Below are positions 14,931-23,605 of a DNA stretch of 64,000 nt, in pieces. The translations under genes and the position numbers were made by a program. This DNA comes from Cyanocohniella sp. LLY (GTDB lineage Bacteria; Cyanobacteriota; Cyanobacteriia; Cyanobacteriales; Nostocaceae), in NCBI GenBank assembly GCA_022241785.1, contig JAKOMP010000003.1, positions 1 to 64,000 of the forward strand, given 5' to 3'. The notes below the pieces were generated by a model, which saw only the letters and a list, made by a program, of their open reading frames with translations, was not told the DNA's origin and made no database searches. Every line of letters begins with the position of its first letter. Within the stretch, counting starts at the first letter, position 1.

Positions 14931-16124
14931 TCACTCCGGTAATTTATATTGCCCAACAATCCGCTTCGCAAACTCCGGCACATGCTCCTCTAGCTTTTCC
15001 GGATGATTGCGCTTCACATACAAATAATTCCGCGTAAAGTGCGAATCAATGGAAAATCGCGCATACTCCAAACCCTTAGGCCCAATCCTCTCAATCACCA
15101 CACCCATGAGTTTCGCCGCCCACATGGGCAAAGTCACACCCTTATCGTAAGCAGGAATACTTTGTTGCACTGCTTCTTTACGATTCCCTTGGGACATCAC
15201 AGGCTGAGTATCTAACTGGTCTTGCACCAAGTCCAACATTTCGTTCCCTGTATCATTCCTGACCACAATCCACTGCCAGCCGAAAGGTGCGCCCATGTAA
15301 CCCACAACTAAATCTGCCAGGGAGTTGACGTAATCAAAGCAACTCATACAGGAAGGGGCAAAGACATCTTTAAGTTTGTTAGTCTTCAAACCAAAGAAAG
15401 GCACAGTTTCCGTAGTTCCATCCTCATGTTTGAAATGCACCCGGAAGTCTTGCATGAATTCATAATGCACAACTGTCTCAGGCGATCGGCTGGTGGTTTC
15501 TAAGAATTTTTGCAGTCCAGCACGCGTAACATTATCTACACAAGGTGTACCTAAGACATACAACTTTTCTAACCCTAGTTGTTTTTCCACAGCCCTGAGT
15601 GCTTGAATTTGGCAACCCACACCAATTACTAATAATCGCTTCATCCCCGATCGCTCTATTTGTTCCAAAATAGAAAGGTTGGGTGATAATGTCGGTTTAT
15701 TTACTTTGGCTGCCAGTATTTCTTCTGGGGTACGAGCAATTACAGGCATGGGTTGAAAGCGGTCTTCTTTGGTGTTCTGCACACAGACGACACCTTCAAC
15801 TAAGCCGCGATTGAGCATTTCAATGGCAATGCTACTAACAATACCCGTCCATTGTGCGCCTTCGATGGGCTGCTGCTTCCGGGCGGCCATCATGTCTTGA
15901 TGCACACCGAAGTATAGTTCATTGTCGTTGTCTAGGTCACGCGATCGCCTGTGGCTTTTTTCTTCTAAGTCGCCTATCTGCTGATTAATAAAGGCGCAGG
16001 CTTCCTTGACATAGTGAATATAATATGTGTCACACAGTCCGCACTCGCTACAAAGTTCTTTAGCAGGACGACGGCTGGTAGGTTTGAGGGCTTTGGCTTT
16101 TTTGTGAGGAGAAACTGAAGTCAT
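14931..16124 (-). CDS. bciB: Ferredoxin-dependent 3,8-divinyl (proto)chlorophyllide 8-vinyl reductase
   Basis: A 397-residue protein of the F420-hydrogenase beta-subunit fold. Iron-sulfur cysteines are visible in CSECGLCDTYY, GVGCQIQALRA, GTPCVDNVTR and SCMSCFDYVNSLADLVVGYMG. In cyanobacteria lacking BciA this protein reduces the 8-vinyl group of divinyl chlorophyllide during chlorophyll a synthesis. A related plant enzyme reduces 7-hydroxymethyl chlorophyll, but length and genomic distribution favour BciB here. The start is the ATG at 16124. Confidence 0.9.
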   Translation of the reverse strand: MTSVSPHKKAKALKPTSRRPAKELCSECGLCDTYYIHYVKEACAFINQQIGDLEEKSHRRSRDLDNDNELYFGVHQDMMAARKQQPIEGAQWTGIVSSIAIEMLNRGLVEGVVCVQNTKEDRFQPMPVIARTPEEILAAKVNKPTLSPNLSILEQIERSGMKRLLVIGVGCQIQALRAVEKQLGLEKLYVLGTPCVDNVTRAGLQKFLETTSRSPETVVHYEFMQDFRVHFKHEDGTTETVPFFGLKTNKLKDVFAPSCMSCFDYVNSLADLVVGYMGAPFGWQWIVVRNDTGNEMLDLVQDQLDTQPVMSQGNRKEAVQQSIPAYDKGVTLPMWAAKLMGVVIERIGPKGLEYARFSIDSHFTRNYLYVKRNHPEKLEEHVPEFAKRIVGQYKLPE

Positions 16125-16286: not shown

Positions 16287-17084
16287 ATGGGATTAAGTAA
16301 ACGCATCAATGGTATTATCCATGCAAATGTGAACAGTACACTAGGCAACTTCAAAAAAGTAGATTTCCAGACAGCTGAAAAAGCAGCCTTTGTTGGTGGC
16401 GGATTAGCAGCTGGTGCTGTCGTATCGGAAACCGTGGGTGGAATGGGACTAGCCGCCGCCGGAACAGCTATTGGTATTGGTGCGCCTCATTTATTAGCTG
16501 TAGGAGCCGTTACTGGTACAGCCGCTTACGGAGCGAAAAAGGGAATAGAAAACCGAGACTCTCTAGCATTAGGTGCAGCTGCATTAGGAGCAGCAGGTGG
16601 TGTAGGAGTTTCCAGCACCATTGGCAATATGGGCTTACTCGCAGCCGGAACGGGATTTAGCATAGGTATGGCTCCTGTGACGGCGGCTGGTGCAGTGGTA
16701 GGATTAGGTGCTTATGGTGTATTCAAGCTCCTGGATGGAAATCACGATCATGATTCAAAACCAATTATTGAATCTCTCAACCAAGTCAAACAAAGCATCA
16801 TAGAAAATATTCATACTGCCAAAGCCAATCAAAACAGATTACAAGCAGATTATCAACGAACTCAAAACAAAATCGCATCTTGCCATCAAATAGCCTTATT
16901 AGCTATGAAAAAAGGCAGTGAAGACTTGGCACGTGAAGCTTTGATGCGTAAGTATACCCACCAACAAAATGCCAACAATCTTCACAAACAAATAGAAGAA
17001 CTAACGACAACTATTAATAATCTATTCCTTGATTTGCAATTTATAAATCAAACAATTATTCAAATAAAAACCGAAGGAAGCTAA
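16287..17084 (+). CDS. PspA/Vipp1-like protein with inserted Gly/Ala-rich membrane region
   Basis: A 265-residue protein of unusual design. The first ~26 residues (MGLSKRINGIIHANVNSTL) look like the amphipathic helix that starts PspA and Vipp1. Residues about 30-150 are a Gly/Ala-rich hydrophobic region made of two related halves, each with GVSS/SET-VGGMGL-type and AYG blocks. Residues about 158-262 are a long helical hairpin containing KKGSEDLAREALMRK (EDLAREAL at 212-219), a hallmark of PspA/Vipp1 coiled coils. Known members lack the glycine-rich insert. A membrane-remodelling role in the ESCRT-III superfamily is inferred. The same Gly-rich region opens the protein at 17912-19642, two genes downstream. 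Confidence 0.7.
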   Translation: MGLSKRINGIIHANVNSTLGNFKKVDFQTAEKAAFVGGGLAAGAVVSETVGGMGLAAAGTAIGIGAPHLLAVGAVTGTAAYGAKKGIENRDSLALGAAALGAAGGVGVSSTIGNMGLLAAGTGFSIGMAPVTAAGAVVGLGAYGVFKLLDGNHDHDSKPIIESLNQVKQSIIENIHTAKANQNRLQADYQRTQNKIASCHQIALLAMKKGSEDLAREALMRKYTHQQNANNLHKQIEELTTTINNLFLDLQFINQTIIQIKTEGS

Positions 17085-17104
17085 AACAAAAAAAGTTTAT
17101 ATCT

Positions 17105-17275
17105 TCCTCTGTATTCTCCGTGCGACACCACTTGCTACAAGTCGGGAAACCCTTTCGGCAGTTCCTCCTGGGGGAAAACCCCCCGCCGTTCGCCTTTGGC
17201 GTCTCCCCTTGGGAGAAGGATGCCCGAAGGGCTGTAGACCGGACTGCCTCACCAACGCAGTGGCTCCTCTGTGGT
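17105..17275. repeat. GC-rich palindromic intergenic repeat
   Basis: A mosaic of short inverted repeats (for example GGGGGAAAACCCCCC and CGCCTTTGGCG) interrupts the three-gene module. It resembles the dispersed non-coding repeats of Nostoc-like genomes. A 60-codon minus-strand frame across it is repeat-derived and not a gene. Confidence 0.6.
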
Positions 17276-17299
17276 TCATTAATCTAATTCTTTTACATC

Positions 17300-17905
17300 A
17301 TGAAAAAACTAGGAATTTTCATTATCATCGCTTTCGCCTCAACTCTGACTGCCTGTTTCCAAAACTCACAAGCTGATACACCACCAATTTCCAATTCTTC
17401 CCCTAAGCAAGCAAAACCAATTTCAGAGGTTCCTCCTGAACAACCAAAAATTGTCTCAAATCCTCCACATTGTGAAGATAGCTGTCAAAAGCTGGCCACA
17501 GATACTAGCTTTAGTGAATCAACAATTAAACCAGAACTCATTACTTATTTGCCGACATGGGAAAATTTCTGTGAAAAAACTCAGCAACAGCCTTATTGTA
17601 ATATTTTGAAACCTTATCAATTTGCTGATGGCATAGTTTACCTAAAAGTTACTAGCACAGAATCTTTTGCTATTGATATTCATTTCACATCCGGTATCGA
17701 TAGAAATAGAGCTATGAGCATTGTCCAAGCTGCTGTCAACAGTCAAGAGCCTTTTGAAAAAACTGAAGAAACCAAAGATAAAATAATGTTGTATGGCGGC
17801 CCCTTTGACGATGGGGATGAAACTTATTATCTAGCAGTAACTGAGTTAAGCTTAAATGCTCAAAACCAAGTTACTCAAATCACTTCCGTCTCGACAACTC
17901 CATAA
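17300..17905 (+). CDS. Putative lipoprotein of the PspA-like/J-domain module
   Basis: A 201-residue protein with a lipoprotein signal (hydrophobic FIIIAFASTLTAC, lipid-anchored Cys19), a Pro/Ser-rich linker and a compact domain with Cys residues at HCEDSCQKL, FCEKTQQ and YCNI. No family recognised. It lies between the two proteins that share the Gly-rich membrane region, and ends six bases before the next start, so the two are probably translated together. Likely location is the periplasmic or lumenal face of a membrane. Confidence 0.75.
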   Translation: MKKLGIFIIIAFASTLTACFQNSQADTPPISNSSPKQAKPISEVPPEQPKIVSNPPHCEDSCQKLATDTSFSESTIKPELITYLPTWENFCEKTQQQPYCNILKPYQFADGIVYLKVTSTESFAIDIHFTSGIDRNRAMSIVQAAVNSQEPFEKTEETKDKIMLYGGPFDDGDETYYLAVTELSLNAQNQVTQITSVSTTP

Positions 17906-17911
17906 ATCAAA

Positions 17912-19642
17912 ATGAAACCCACATCCCAAAAAGGTGCAGCATTTATCGCCGGAGGAAGTATCGGAGGTGCGGGTATCTCCTCAACAGTCGGTGGTATAGG
18001 AATTGTCGGCGGCTTTGGTGGCGTAGGAATTGGTGCAACTTCTGTAGTTGGTGCTGGCGCTGTTGCTGGTGCAGCTATTTACGGTGCTTTCGATGCCATA
18101 ACAAATGGAGATGCAGCCGTTTTCGGTGCAATGGGAATTAATGCAGTTGGTGGTGCTGGTGTTGCTAGCGTCGTTGGTGGGATGGGATTAGTCGCCCCAA
18201 AAATCGGGTTAGCAGTTGGTATTGGTACAGTTCCGATGGCGGGATTTGGGGCTGTGGTTGGACTCGCCGCTTATGGTATTGCCAAACTGTTAGATGAATC
18301 TGAAGTTAAGGAAACTTCCTTTCAGCTTTTTGAACGGATGGAAGAAAAAGTCTTACAGATGGACTATTATTCTGCCGCAGTCATGGAGTTAGATTTATTT
18401 TTATCTGGTGATGATCTTAATCAAAAATTTGCCGCTTGGGAAATTGAGGATGAGTTACAAGTACTCAAAGCGCAGGTGAAAAAGCAAGTTGTTCCTCCCA
18501 AAATTGAACTTAAAATAGTACCTCAAACAACCCAGCCGCCGGAAACTTGGAAATGTGTAGAAACTCTTAAAGGTCATTCAGCAGCAGTTAATGCCTTAGC
18601 TATTAATCCTGATGATCAAACTTTTGTTAGTGGGAGTAATGACAGAACAGTTGGTTTGTGGAACTTAAATACTGGCAAATGGCTTTATACTTTTTCTGGA
18701 CAAGCCGAGGCTGTTTTATCTGTTGCTATTAGTCCTAATGGTAAGCAAATCATTAGCGGTAGTGTAGAACGGAAAATTAGTCGTTGGCAATTAGATACAA
18801 AACAATATCATCGGACATTCTCTTATTTAAATTCTCCTTATAGCCATAATGGCTTTGTTAACTCACTTGCTTATAGTGCTGATGGCAAAATAGTCGCCAG
18901 TGCTAGTACAGATAAAACTCTTAGAATTTGGGGAGGTTATACAGGTACTCTCAAACGTACCTTGAATGGACATACTAATACAGTTTTATCTGTTGCTATT
19001 AGTCCCGATTGCCAGATTCTTGTGAGTGGTAGTGCTGATAAAAGTATTCGATTTTGGGATTTACAAACTGGTCAACAACGCTGTATTTTAAATCAACATT
19101 CAGCAGCAGTGAATACAGTAATTATTAGTTCTGACGGTCAAACTCTTATTAGTGGAAGCACAGACAAGACAATTAAGCTGTGGAATCTTCACACTGGCGA
19201 ATTATGTCGTACTCTGACTGGACATACAACGGCGGTTCTCTCCCTTGCTATTCACCCGGACGGAAAAACCCTCGCCAGTGGCAGCACAGACTGTATAATT
19301 CTTTGGAATTTACAAACTGATGAATTACTCCAAACTCTGGCTGGGGTTAGTCCCGTGGCTTGGAGTCATGATGGCAAAACCCTTGTAAGTGGCGCTAAAG
19401 GTGGTGCAATTAAGATTTGGCGACAAATACAAAACTGTGATGAGTTGACTCTCAAAACTGTCATGTCTGGGAAATGGTGGGAAGTCTTAGGTGTAGATCA
19501 AAACGCTCATCCCAAAGATATTAAGTCTGCTTACATTCGTTTAGCCAGATTGTATCACCCTGATGTTAACGGTTCTGCCAGTAACCAAACTTCAATGCAA
19601 GCAATTAATGGCGCTTATCAACAATTTCAGGGCAAAAAATGA
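17912..19642 (+). CDS. Gly-rich membrane region - WD40 propeller - J-domain protein
   Basis: A 576-residue fusion. Residues about 5-130 are a Gly/Ala-rich hydrophobic region closely matching that of the PspA-like protein (shared blocks: STVGGIG, GAVAGAAIYGA, GAVVGLAAYGIAKLLD). Residues about 205-515 hold seven WD40 repeats ending in forms such as SGSTDKTIKLWNL. Residues about 523-574 are a J domain with the HPD motif at 549-551, which would stimulate Hsp70 (DnaK) ATPase. A J-domain co-chaperone beside a Vipp1-like protein recalls the CDJ2-Hsp70-VIPP1 system of Chlamydomonas; that link is inference. The ATG follows the lipoprotein stop by six bases. Confidence 0.88.
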   Translation: MKPTSQKGAAFIAGGSIGGAGISSTVGGIGIVGGFGGVGIGATSVVGAGAVAGAAIYGAFDAITNGDAAVFGAMGINAVGGAGVASVVGGMGLVAPKIGLAVGIGTVPMAGFGAVVGLAAYGIAKLLDESEVKETSFQLFERMEEKVLQMDYYSAAVMELDLFLSGDDLNQKFAAWEIEDELQVLKAQVKKQVVPPKIELKIVPQTTQPPETWKCVETLKGHSAAVNALAINPDDQTFVSGSNDRTVGLWNLNTGKWLYTFSGQAEAVLSVAISPNGKQIISGSVERKISRWQLDTKQYHRTFSYLNSPYSHNGFVNSLAYSADGKIVASASTDKTLRIWGGYTGTLKRTLNGHTNTVLSVAISPDCQILVSGSADKSIRFWDLQTGQQRCILNQHSAAVNTVIISSDGQTLISGSTDKTIKLWNLHTGELCRTLTGHTTAVLSLAIHPDGKTLASGSTDCIILWNLQTDELLQTLAGVSPVAWSHDGKTLVSGAKGGAIKIWRQIQNCDELTLKTVMSGKWWEVLGVDQNAHPKDIKSAYIRLARLYHPDVNGSASNQTSMQAINGAYQQFQGKK

Positions 19643-20404: not shown

Positions 20405-21859
20405 ATGGCGATGCCAATAAATGAATTACTAACAGATGAGAATATAGAAGAACAAGCATGGCGAGCGCTAGAACAGTCAATTCTCTATTATCAAGGTCGC
20501 CCCATTGGGACTGTAGCTGCTTATGATGTGTCTGTGGAAGCACTGAATTATGACCAGTGTTTTGTTCGAGATTTTGTCTCGTCAGCTTTAATTTTTCTGA
20601 TTAAAGGTAGAACAGATATTGTTCGCAATTTTCTCGAAGAAACTTTAAAGTTGCAGCCCAAAGAAAGAGAATTAGACGCGTATAAGCCCGGACGAGGGTT
20701 AATTCCGGCTAGTTTTAAAGTTGTATCTGTTAATGGCCAAGAACATTTAGAAGCGGATTTTGGCGAACACGCGATCGCCCGAGTTACTCCAGTAGATTCT
20801 TGTCTATGGTGGATTATTTTATTGCGTGCTTATATAGTCGCCACCAAAGATTATTCCATAGCCTATGAACCTGAATTCCAAAATGGTATCCGGTTAATTA
20901 TGGAAATCTGCTTGGCGAATCGCTTTGATATGTATCCCACGCTGTTGGTTCCTGACGGTGCTTGTATGATTGACCGTCGTATGGGCATTTATGGGCATCC
21001 TTTGGAACTGCAAGTGTTATTTTATGCAGCTTTGCGGGCGGCGCGAGAGATGCTAATTTGCAAAGGTAATCAAGATATCGTAGCCGCCATTGATAACCGC
21101 TTACCGCTTTTGTGCGCGCATATTCGCCAGCATTATTGGATAGATATTAATCGTCTGAATACAATTTATCGCTTCAAAAGTGAAGAGTATGGCAAAGCCG
21201 CAGTCAATTTATTTAATATCTATGTAGATTCCCTACCCTACTATGAATTAGATAAATGGCTACCCATAAAAGGCGGTTATTTAGCTGGGAATGTCGGGCC
21301 ATCGCAGTTAGATACGCGTTTCTTTGCGCTGGGTAATTTGATGGCGATCATTTCCGATTTAGCCACCGAAGAACAGTCACAAGCTATTATGACTCTAATT
21401 GAGGAACAATGGGACGACTTGATGGGAGATATGCCCATGAAAATCTGTTTCCCAGCCTTAGAAAATGAAGAGTACAGAATTGTTACAGGATGTGACCCTA
21501 AAAATATCCCGTGGTCATATCATAATGCTGGCAGTTGGCCTGTTTTAATGTGGATGTTTGCAGCAGCATCTGTCAAAACTAATAAAATAGGTTTGGCAAG
21601 AAAGGCGATTGAAATTGCCAAAGTACGCCTGAGTGAAGATGAATGGCCAGAGTATTATGATGGCAAAAAGGGGCGTTTAATTGGCAAACAAGCTAGGAAA
21701 TATCAAACCTGGACAATAGCTGGTTTCTTGTTAGCTAAAGAACTGATGGATAATCCTATTTATTTATCATTAGTTAGTTTTGATGAATTATCTCCAGAAG
21801 TAATTTCTAGAGCGTGTGAATTTGAAATTGGCAGCGTAGATCCGTTTCTGTCTCATTAA
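20405..21859 (+). CDS. Alkaline/neutral invertase, GH100
   Basis: A 484-residue GH100 enzyme that hydrolyses sucrose to glucose and fructose in the cytoplasm. Signature segments: [40 protein letters not shown] and [10 protein letters not shown]. The catalytic acid would be Asp190 (in CMIDRRMG) and the base Glu416 (in DEWPEYYDG); these correspond, with a two-residue offset, to the Asp188/Glu414 pair I recall from the Anabaena InvA structure. Length is normal. A second family member follows directly in tandem. Invertases supply carbon for heterocyst function in Nostocales. Confidence 0.95.
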
Positions 21860-21957: not shown

Positions 21958-22189
21958 ATTTTCTAAATTGCTCTTTGTGATCACTTTCAATATGGAGCCT
22001 ATGGGACAATAAGGTAAATGAGAAACTTGGGTTATCCTGAGAATATGGACGATGGAATATCGCCCCCAATTGAACGTGGCAAAAAGTTAAGTGGGTCTAT
22101 ATCCATCGCCAAGAAAATACACTGAAACGGCAGAGTTAAATCTAGTTTTTCTCTTGCCAAAATCCCATCAAAATGGAGCGTTTCTCGCA

Positions 22190-23605
22190 ATGGAAAGAGA
22201 GGAATTAGTAATAGTCGATGACTTAGAGAAACAGGCGTGGGAAATTTTAGAAAAGTCGATTATTTATTATCAAGGCCGTCCTGTAGGTACGGTTGCTACC
22301 TGTGACGCTTCACTAGGCGATTTGCATCATGACCATTGTTTTATCAGAGATTTTGCTTCTTCAGCTTTACTGTTTTTAATTAAAGGTAAATATGATATTG
22401 TTCGGAATTTTCTAGAAGAAACTTTAAAGTTACAGCCTAAAAAAAGCCAATTAGATGCTTATACTCCCGGTCAAGGTTTGATACCAGCCAGCTTCAAAGT
22501 TGTCTCAGATAATGGGCAAGAATACTTAGAAGCGGATTTTGGCGAACACGCGATCGCACGAGTTACACCTGTTGATTCTTGTCTGTGGTGGGTTATTATA
22601 CTATACGCTTATGTAAAATCTACAAAAGATATTAGTTTCGCCTTGCAACCAGAATTCCAGCAAGGAATCATGTTAATTATGGAACTTTGCTTGGCGACGC
22701 GATTTGAGATGTACCCGACGCTGTTAGTTCCCGATGGCGCTTGTATGATTTATCGGCGCATGGGTATCTATGGTTATCCGTTGGAAATTCAATCTTTATT
22801 TTATGCCGCGTTGCGGGCGGCGCGAAAGTTACTGATTTGTGCAGGTGATGAAGAAATTGTCATTGGGATTGATAACCGCTTACCTTTATTAAGAGATCAT
22901 ATTCGCCATCATTATTGGATTGATATGAAGCGATTAAATCAGATTTATCGCTTTAAGGGTGAAGAATACGGAGAATCAGCAGTTAATCAATTTAATATCT
23001 ATCCTGATTCAATTCCCTATGCTAATTTGGCGATTTGGTTGCCTAAACATGGTGGTTACCTAGCAGGTAATGTTGGCCCATCGCAGTTAGATACTCGTTT
23101 CTTTGCACTGGGAAATATGATGGCTATTATTTCCTCTTTAGCAAGTGAAAAACAGTCCCAAGCAATTATGAATCTCATTGAGGAACAGTGGGATGACTTG
23201 GTGGGAGAAATGCCGATGAAAATCTGTTTTCCGGCTGTAGAAAAAGAGGAGTACAGAATTTTTACTGGTTGTGACCCTAGAAATATTCCTTGGTCATACC
23301 ATAATGGTGGTAGTTGGCCAGTATTATTGTGGTCTTTGATTGCGGCGGCTCAAAAAACTGGTAGAAGCTATATTGGCAAACAAGCTTTGCAAATTGCCCA
23401 AGCACGGTTGAGTGAAGACCATTGGCCGGAATATTACGATGGTACGCGGGGGTTATTAATTGGTAAAAAAGCTAGGAGATATCAAACCTGGACGGTTACT
23501 GGCTTTTTGTTGGCTAAGGAGTTGATGCGAAATCCTGAGCATTTAGCATTAATCAGTTTTGGGCAATTTGATTCCGAGAATCCTTCCCAGTCTTGTGAGT
23601 TGTAA
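22190..23605 (+). CDS. GH100 invertase paralogue lacking the catalytic Asp
   Basis: A 471-residue GH100 protein, strongly similar to the preceding gene over its whole length. I start it at the ATG at 22190, which aligns with the neighbour's N-terminus; the upstream frame adds 33 unrelated residues. The catalytic-acid motif CMIDRRMG reads CMIYRRMG: codon 188 is TAT (22751-22753) where the first gene has GAC. Glu414 in HWPEYYDG is kept. If the sequence is right, hydrolysis should be lost or greatly reduced, so this may be a sugar-binding, regulatory or subunit-like pseudoenzyme. The frame is intact, arguing against simple decay. Confidence 0.9.
   Translation: MEREELVIVDDLEKQAWEILEKSIIYYQGRPVGTVATCDASLGDLHHDHCFIRDFASSALLFLIKGKYDIVRNFLEETLKLQPKKSQLDAYTPGQGLIPASFKVVSDNGQEYLEADFGEHAIARVTPVDSCLWWVIILYAYVKSTKDISFALQPEFQQGIMLIMELCLATRFEMYPTLLVPDGACMIYRRMGIYGYPLEIQSLFYAALRAARKLLICAGDEEIVIGIDNRLPLLRDHIRHHYWIDMKRLNQIYRFKGEEYGESAVNQFNIYPDSIPYANLAIWLPKHGGYLAGNVGPSQLDTRFFALGNMMAIISSLASEKQSQAIMNLIEEQWDDLVGEMPMKICFPAVEKEEYRIFTGCDPRNIPWSYHNGGSWPVLLWSLIAAAQKTGRSYIGKQALQIAQARLSEDHWPEYYDGTRGLLIGKKARRYQTWTVTGFLLAKELMRNPEHLALISFGQFDSENPSQSCEL

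Follow-up and report, generated by a model that had tools for sequence, protein, structure and literature searches.

The closest described relatives of the locus analysed here are Vipp1/IM30 and PspA (PspA_IM30, PF04012), which belong to the ESCRT-III superfamily. In Vipp1, helix alpha5 binds the hairpin tip of a neighbouring subunit and is required for polymers; L86C/L193C variants cross-link, and Vipp1 without alpha5 and alpha6 forms neither rings nor filaments (PMC8281802). According to a survey of PSP systems, the architecture of PspA varies little (PMC11237479). As for disassembly, it has been reported that chloroplast HSP70B, CDJ2 and CGE1 assemble and disassemble VIPP1 in Chlamydomonas (PMC10602608), and reviews of bacterial and plastid ESCRT-III name Hsp70/DnaK, with CDJ2 in chloroplasts; the accessible text of these reviews names no J protein for cyanobacterial Vipp1 (PMC13051332, PMC6882379). 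Here we describe a locus of Cyanocohniella sp. LLY, located in the first 64,000 nucleotides of contig JAKOMP010000003.1 (the whole of this stretch is called the window), in which three same-strand open reading frames, confirmed at the coordinates of Table 1, code for the proteins P1, P2 and P3. Judging from profile comparisons, P1 and P3 appear to be together one PspA/Vipp1 split over two proteins, the second of which also carries a WD40 propeller and a J domain.

An initial annotation, made from the sequence of the window, had read this locus as a candidate membrane system, possibly self-contained, formed by a PspA/Vipp1-like protein, a lipoprotein and a WD40-J-domain protein, the first and the last sharing a glycine-rich region. 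This interpretation is partly supported by the results described below. It did not foresee, however, that P1 is an incomplete PspA and that P3 holds the missing alpha4-alpha5, which is a far more specific link between P1 and P3 than the glycine-rich region that they share.

A PspA/Vipp1 chain divided between P1 and P3

P1 matches the Pfam PspA_IM30 model with 44.4 bits (cut-off, 33.9) through its residues 173-263, which cover positions 44-134 of the 220 in the profile. In addition, a profile built from ten P1-type hairpins matches Vipp1 residues 19-135 (best chain, E 8.3e-16; 6zvr, E 2.4e-15), where 6zvr, the Nostoc punctiforme Vipp1 chain, is the reference for the residue numbers of this match and of that of P3. 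AlphaFold models the hairpin as two helices, 158-208 and 212-264, with predicted local distance difference test (pLDDT) values mostly above 75. Superposition of this model on the structure of E. coli PspA (4whe), at a Foldseek E of 5.5e-3, covers 107 columns with a root-mean-square deviation of 1.2. Vipp1 topped the PDB list in a fold search with this hairpin, in which only two matches had an E of at most 0.001 and were followed by unrelated coiled coils. P1 thus has the antiparallel alpha1-alpha2/3 hairpin with its conserved tip, the tip being the best-conserved part of the hairpin, with L214, A215, A218 and L219 invariant in all 16 P1 sequences. Profile match, predicted structure and fold search alike uphold the hairpin that the initial annotation had claimed. 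The claimed PspA-like start of P1, MGLSKRINGIIHANVN, resembles the alpha0 of the host PspA, MGLIQRILRIIRANLN, in an unscored comparison by eye. The end of P1 corresponds approximately to Vipp1 135-140, and alpha4-alpha5 is absent from this protein. A truncated gene with alpha4/alpha5 left just downstream was ruled out, as the three-frame translation of the gap between P1 and the lipoprotein gene contains none.

The missing helices are found in P3. In a whole-genome family search, PspA_IM30 matches this protein at 18290-18487 with profile positions 155-218, at 24.1 bits (E 9.2e-5), which does not reach the Pfam cut-off, and a profile from 11 P3-type segments matches 6zvr residues 165-217 (E 5.5e-9). 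It is because the P1 and P3 profiles match non-overlapping parts of one Vipp1 chain that both proteins can be read as one PspA split in two. As alpha0 to alpha5 are not present in a single chain in either P1, which stops at about 135-140, or P3, whose match starts at 165, we speak of a split relative and not of a PspA.

The correspondence extends to contact residues of Vipp1, when their pairing is read from the two profile alignments. The P3 side was followed in 65 P3 loci that were read, a chosen subset of 1.01 Mb to which the P1 search contributed L038, L095, L096 and L098, so that it is P1-enriched, and one of which is the window. The counterpart of Vipp1 L86 is P1 L214, found in 16/16 P1 sequences, and that of L193 is P3 L169, which is Leu in 48 and Ile in 11 of the 65 P3 sequences. 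F197 and E209 correspond to P3 F173 (63/65) and E181 (65/65), respectively, and the position of L200 is Leu in 57/65 and Trp in the P3 of the window. As a set, the alpha5 contact residues of Vipp1 (L193, F197, L200, E209 and L210) are conserved in the 65 P3 sequences. Median dN/dS, from pairs that are not independent of each other, is 0.31 for P1 (85 pairs), 0.18 for the alpha4/alpha5 piece of P3, 0.20 for its WD40 part, 0.43 for the double-hairpin protein described below and 0.56 for the lipoprotein; these values point to purifying selection on P1 and on the alpha4/alpha5 piece.

The rest of P3 was found as initially annotated, with seven WD40 stretches and a J domain of 51 bits (cut-off, 27.8) in which the HPD motif is present. 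The parts downstream of the P3 N-terminus were read in the 65 loci, where 62 P3 proteins have at least 500 amino acids, 62 have a J domain, and HPD is found in 62 of 63 J domains. The host genome codes for 13 J domains above the cut-off, including that of P3, and for three full-length Hsp70 proteins, whose genes are all on other contigs. As none of the three open reading frames codes for an Hsp70, the suggestion that the system is self-contained is not supported.

Both halves also occur in one chain. The order alpha0, glycine-rich domain, hairpin and alpha4/alpha5 is seen in the full sequences of P0024, P0028, P0030, P0036, P0051 and P0200; P0024, for instance, matches PspA_IM30 nearly whole (167 bits, profile 14-217) and has the glycine-rich domain after alpha0. 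In P0130, P0135, P0136, P0137, P0140 and P0145, the order is hairpin, glycine-rich domain and alpha4/alpha5. The existence of fusions in two orders suggests that the hairpin and the glycine-rich-alpha4/alpha5 piece work together. Other arrangements are the permuted P0058 (alpha0, glycine-rich domain, alpha4/alpha5 and hairpin), P0044 (hairpin and glycine-rich domain) and proteins with the glycine-rich domain alone.

The glycine-rich domain

The glycine-rich region that the initial annotation had described as common to P1 and P3 is indeed shared. Both regions align with a score of 280, whereas the scores of 300 shuffles averaged 80 and never exceeded 117, which rules out that the likeness is one of mere composition. 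Self-alignment divides each region into two units of about 50 residues, and the Pfam search of the locus proteins gave the region no family name. In P1, the charges are nearly confined to the ends and to the stretch between the two units, a layout that would fit membrane-inserting hairpins. Proteins of 69-75 amino acids, consisting of approximately one such unit, are found in L116, L119 and L155 and suggest a minimal module of one unit. In P0052 and P0076, an unrelated N-terminal sequence precedes the domain.

Distribution and linkage

We surveyed 217 genomes of the GTDB family, counting as P3 genomes those in which the match covered some 165 or more of the 215 N-terminal residues of P3 used as the query; shorter or broken rows (G196, G247, G249, G275, G295, G367, G395 and G396) were left out. 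The counts 94, 15, 21/22, 5/15, 26/94 and 14/94 were tallied by hand from the result rows. The P3 N-terminus is present in 94 of the 217 genomes, with an in-frame stop in two (G236 and G242). In a sample of the phylum, it was matched in 33 of 292 genomes, in some by the glycine-rich domain alone, and 32 of the 33 are in the same order.

Among the matches listed, P1-type genes are found in 15 of the 217 genomes, and P1 and P3 are adjacent in five of these, with P1 upstream in four and downstream in one. The other P1 genomes comprise two in which P1 is at a contig end, four without a P3 match and four with P3 elsewhere. In two genomes without P3, P1 occupies the same slot between FrhB-type and invertase genes. 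Nine P1 loci belong to Nostoc, Hassallia, Komarekiella, Dendronalium, Coleofasciculus and two Nostocales strains; in the six of these loci that were scanned, P3 is absent from the available stretch, which reached the contig end in two. The pair is linked in some relatives, and its conservation across Nostocales, which had been named as a check, is not supported. Two findings had been named in advance as fatal to the initial interpretation, a hairpin unlike that of PspA/Vipp1 and a pair unlinked in all relatives; neither was obtained, since the hairpin is PspA/Vipp1-like and the pair is linked in some relatives.

A second hairpin protein has two PspA hairpins and no glycine-rich domain (57.6 bits in the L124 copy). 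It is present in 26 of the 217 genomes at an E of at most 1e-25, and 22 of these also have P3. In 21 of the 22, which represent 8 genera, its gene shares the strand of P3 and precedes it by no more than 2 kb. In the exception, the genes are 561 kb apart, and in three of the read loci they overlap by 17 nucleotides. When the read loci are considered, a hairpin gene is found at most 3 kb upstream of P3 on the same strand in 16/65, downstream in one and not at all in 48. A FrhB-type or invertase gene stands beside P3 in 39/65.

The lipoprotein that the initial annotation placed between P1 and P3 is there, as an open reading frame with a lipobox (LTAC, ending at Cys19 by eye) whose stop is 6 nucleotides from the start of P3. 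It was found, however, in 4/65 read P3 loci, and a role as a core part was therefore ruled out, within the reach of a one-sequence model that distant relatives could escape.

A small HNH nuclease gene was observed near P3 in 12/65 loci (L038, L096, L113, L116, L119, L153, L154, L156, L157, L161, L165 and L171), as counted with a sequence pattern of our own; the L038 copy matches Pfam HNH with 52 bits. The N-terminus of this nuclease, NPLQKLVRGVIRDLIHQAN, also begins one P3 relative, P0118. In L171, P3, the HNH nuclease, a protein with the glycine-rich domain only, the double-hairpin PspA and a one-chain glycine-rich PspA are coded on one strand within approximately 7 kb.

Proposed mechanism and alternative explanations

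Given the conservation of its tip and the lack of alpha5, P1 may be a natural alpha5-less subunit to which P3 could supply the clamp. We tentatively favour a model, quite possible but short of probable, in which both halves join in trans to form a polymer anchored in the membrane and the J domain recruits DnaK for its disassembly. In this model, P1 would give alpha0 and a hairpin of the kind that is aligned laterally with its neighbours in polymers of this family, and P3 would place alpha4-alpha5 across the P1 hairpin tips, just as alpha5 of Vipp1 crosses the tip of subunit j+3 (the AlphaFold predictions used here being those of single chains). The glycine-rich domains would keep P1 and P3 together in one membrane, the WD40 propeller might recognise or bind an additional partner, and through the J domain one of the DnaK proteins of the cell would be recruited to the lattice. 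A more demanding version, which we consider doubtful, is an obligate two-component integral-membrane ESCRT-III machine, with hairpins from one protein, alpha5 clamps from another and a built-in signal for disassembly. As every clamp would bear a J domain, such a polymer would carry its own Hsp70 disassembly signal, and DnaK would do what Vps4 does for eukaryotic ESCRT-III.

Several observations weigh against assembly in trans. The equivalent of Vipp1 residues ~136-164 is in neither P1 nor P3, and AlphaFold predicts the alpha4/alpha5 piece of P3 as helices of low confidence. In the glycine-rich regions of both proteins, whose insertion in the membrane is plausible, pLDDT is below 50. In the locus itself, a dispersed repeat lies between the P1 and lipoprotein genes, and a scan for promoters and terminators, which could have supported co-transcription, gave matches at or below chance. 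Among the matches listed, P1 is unlinked to P3 in 4/15 genomes, and another 6/15 gave no P3 (two of them with P1 at contig ends). The double-hairpin protein retains an alpha5-like remnant, VDDELQRLK, and is consequently no clean complement of P3; moreover, of its 21 linked rows, four are interrupted by an in-frame stop and one is fragmentary. The open frame of P3 has fewer than 500 amino acids in 14/94 genomes, because of a contig end or a broken frame, and four of these are among the 21 with a linked double-hairpin gene. Finally, a linked hairpin partner, of either of two exchangeable kinds, is found in 26/94 P3 genomes and in none of the other 68, and ordinary PspA/Vipp1 is present (E of at most 1e-30) in 214 of the 217 genomes of the family.

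The last two observations raise the main doubt, as P3 could act on ordinary PspA/Vipp1 where it is unpartnered, and perhaps everywhere. P3 would then be a general adaptor, a bacterial counterpart of CDJ2 whose alpha4/alpha5 docks on ordinary Vipp1/PspA polymers and whose J domain brings DnaK, with P1 and the double-hairpin protein as optional extra subunits; we regard this as possible, with the evidence leaning somewhat away from it. It shares its basis with assembly in trans, namely, the contact of alpha5 with the tip. The residues of P3 alpha4/alpha5 match those of Vipp1, the host genome has its own Vipp1 (258 amino acids) and PspA (234 amino acids), coded by neighbouring genes on another contig, and DnaK2 and DnaK3 have been reported to associate with Vipp1 in Synechocystis (PMC4297356, a paper whose main text does not contain the word DnaJ). 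The wide presence of ordinary PspA/Vipp1 suggests that P3 may dock on those proteins, and one of the three genomes without them (G242) is a P3 genome; however, since they are found in genomes with and without P3, their presence decides nothing. It also counts against a general adaptor that a nearby hairpin gene is mostly directly upstream of P3 on the same strand, and that the fusions join the glycine-rich-alpha4/alpha5 piece to hairpins of a special kind.

Two other explanations move the attention away from the polymer. The glycine-rich domain might be the working part, perhaps a membrane-permeabilising conflict effector that the PspA pieces, the WD40 propeller and the J domain would sense, hold or limit. 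This would agree with the domain standing alone (133-145 amino acids, or units of 69-75) in 9/65 read P3 loci or behind the unrelated N-termini of P0052 and P0076, with the variation from genome to genome of the stretch upstream of P3, and with the HNH gene of 12 loci, whose L038 copy matches PADLOC models for restriction, DpdF and PtuB (E 3.5e-9 to 4e-3). We nevertheless think it improbable, as the PADLOC models place none of P1, P2 and P3 in an anti-phage defence system (P1 and P2 match none, and P3 matches in its WD40 part only, while the match of the double-hairpin protein is weak, E 0.001), and the FrhB-type or invertase neighbour of P3 in 39 loci indicates a rather stable chromosomal slot. 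Least credible, and in our opinion very improbable, is that P1 and P3 are mere remnants, left behind when PspA was duplicated and its domains were shuffled, in which assembly has been lost. Although modules are shuffled freely, as far as the permutation in P0058, several double-hairpin genes have in-frame stops or are fragmentary, and some P3 frames are short, decay of this kind does not agree with the low dN/dS of P1 and of the alpha4/alpha5 piece, the invariant tip residues of P1 or the linkage of the double-hairpin gene to P3 in all but one of the genomes with both.

Layout of the locus

The locus is flanked by a FrhB-type gene on one side and by two tandem genes for neutral invertases (Glyco_hydro_100) on the other; in relatives, such invertase genes are often found next to P3. 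The repeat in the gap between P1 and the lipoprotein gene is GC-rich and matches at least 20 places in the host genome, its own included, most of them partially.

Table 1. Positions in the window of the three genes, their parts and their neighbours.
Feature	Position	Strand	Remarks
FrhB-type gene	14931..16124	-	Opposite strand to P1-P3
P1, 265 amino acids	16287..17084	+	alpha0, glycine-rich domain, PspA/Vipp1 hairpin; ends before alpha4
P1 alpha0-like N-terminus, residues 1-22	16287..16352	+	By-eye comparison; AlphaFold helix 4-22, pLDDT ~30
P1 glycine-rich domain	16371..16742	+	Two similar units, few internal charges; predicted membrane-inserting
P1 PspA/Vipp1 hairpin, residues 158-264	16758..17078	+	Conservation highest at the tip, D213-K222
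Dispersed repeat	17115..17275	.	Gap between P1 and lipoprotein
P2 lipoprotein, 201 amino acids	17300..17905	+	No domain above Pfam cut-off
P3, 576 amino acids	17912..19642	+	Glycine-rich domain, PspA alpha4/alpha5, WD40 propeller, J domain
P3 glycine-rich domain, residues 6-132	17927..18307	+	
P3 PspA/Vipp1 helices alpha4-alpha5, residues 136-190	18317..18481	+	Equals Vipp1 165-217 by profile
P3 WD40 propeller, residues 212-506	18545..19429	+	
P3 J domain, residues 520-573	19469..19630	+	With HPD
Neutral invertase gene	20405..21859		Glyco_hydro_100
Neutral invertase gene	22091..23605		Glyco_hydro_100

Comparison with known systems

P3 may be of use in the study of how ESCRT-III polymers of bacteria and plastids are disassembled, as it links a J domain covalently to helices of the kind that clamp such a polymer. 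The proposed model could be tested with two proteins, by asking whether alpha5 supplied in trans switches on polymerisation and whether DnaK reverses it. The locus also adds a type of PspA with a predicted integral membrane part, in split form, to the proteins of some filamentous cyanobacteria.

No published description of the combination of PspA, glycine-rich, WD40 and J parts was found in the literature searched, which consisted mostly of titles and abstracts; a review on algal carbon concentration (PMC8320531) contains the words PspA, Vipp1, WD40 and DnaJ. In cyanobacteria, a DnaJ domain is often associated with the neighbours of WD40 genes (PMC5587647), but the passages on them describe no PspA part, and the word PspA does not occur in that paper. 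The PSP survey mentioned above includes tandem and fused PspA paralogues of cyanobacteria, in which copies of PspA are likewise adjacent or fused; the terms WD40, DnaJ, J-domain, glycine and split are absent from its main text (PMC11237479).

Vipp1/IM30 and PspA themselves resemble the locus in the hairpin and alpha4/alpha5, by profile, and in alpha0, by eye. They differ from it in that, here, the parts are in two chains, the stretch 136-164 is absent, a WD40 propeller and a J domain are added, and a glycine-rich domain follows alpha0 in P1 or precedes alpha4 in P3. The likeness to CDJ2-HSP70B-CGE1 is one of proposed role, as in both cases a J protein would be dedicated to a Vipp1-type polymer. 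What sets P3 apart is that its J domain shares a chain with PspA helices, a WD40 propeller and a glycine-rich domain.

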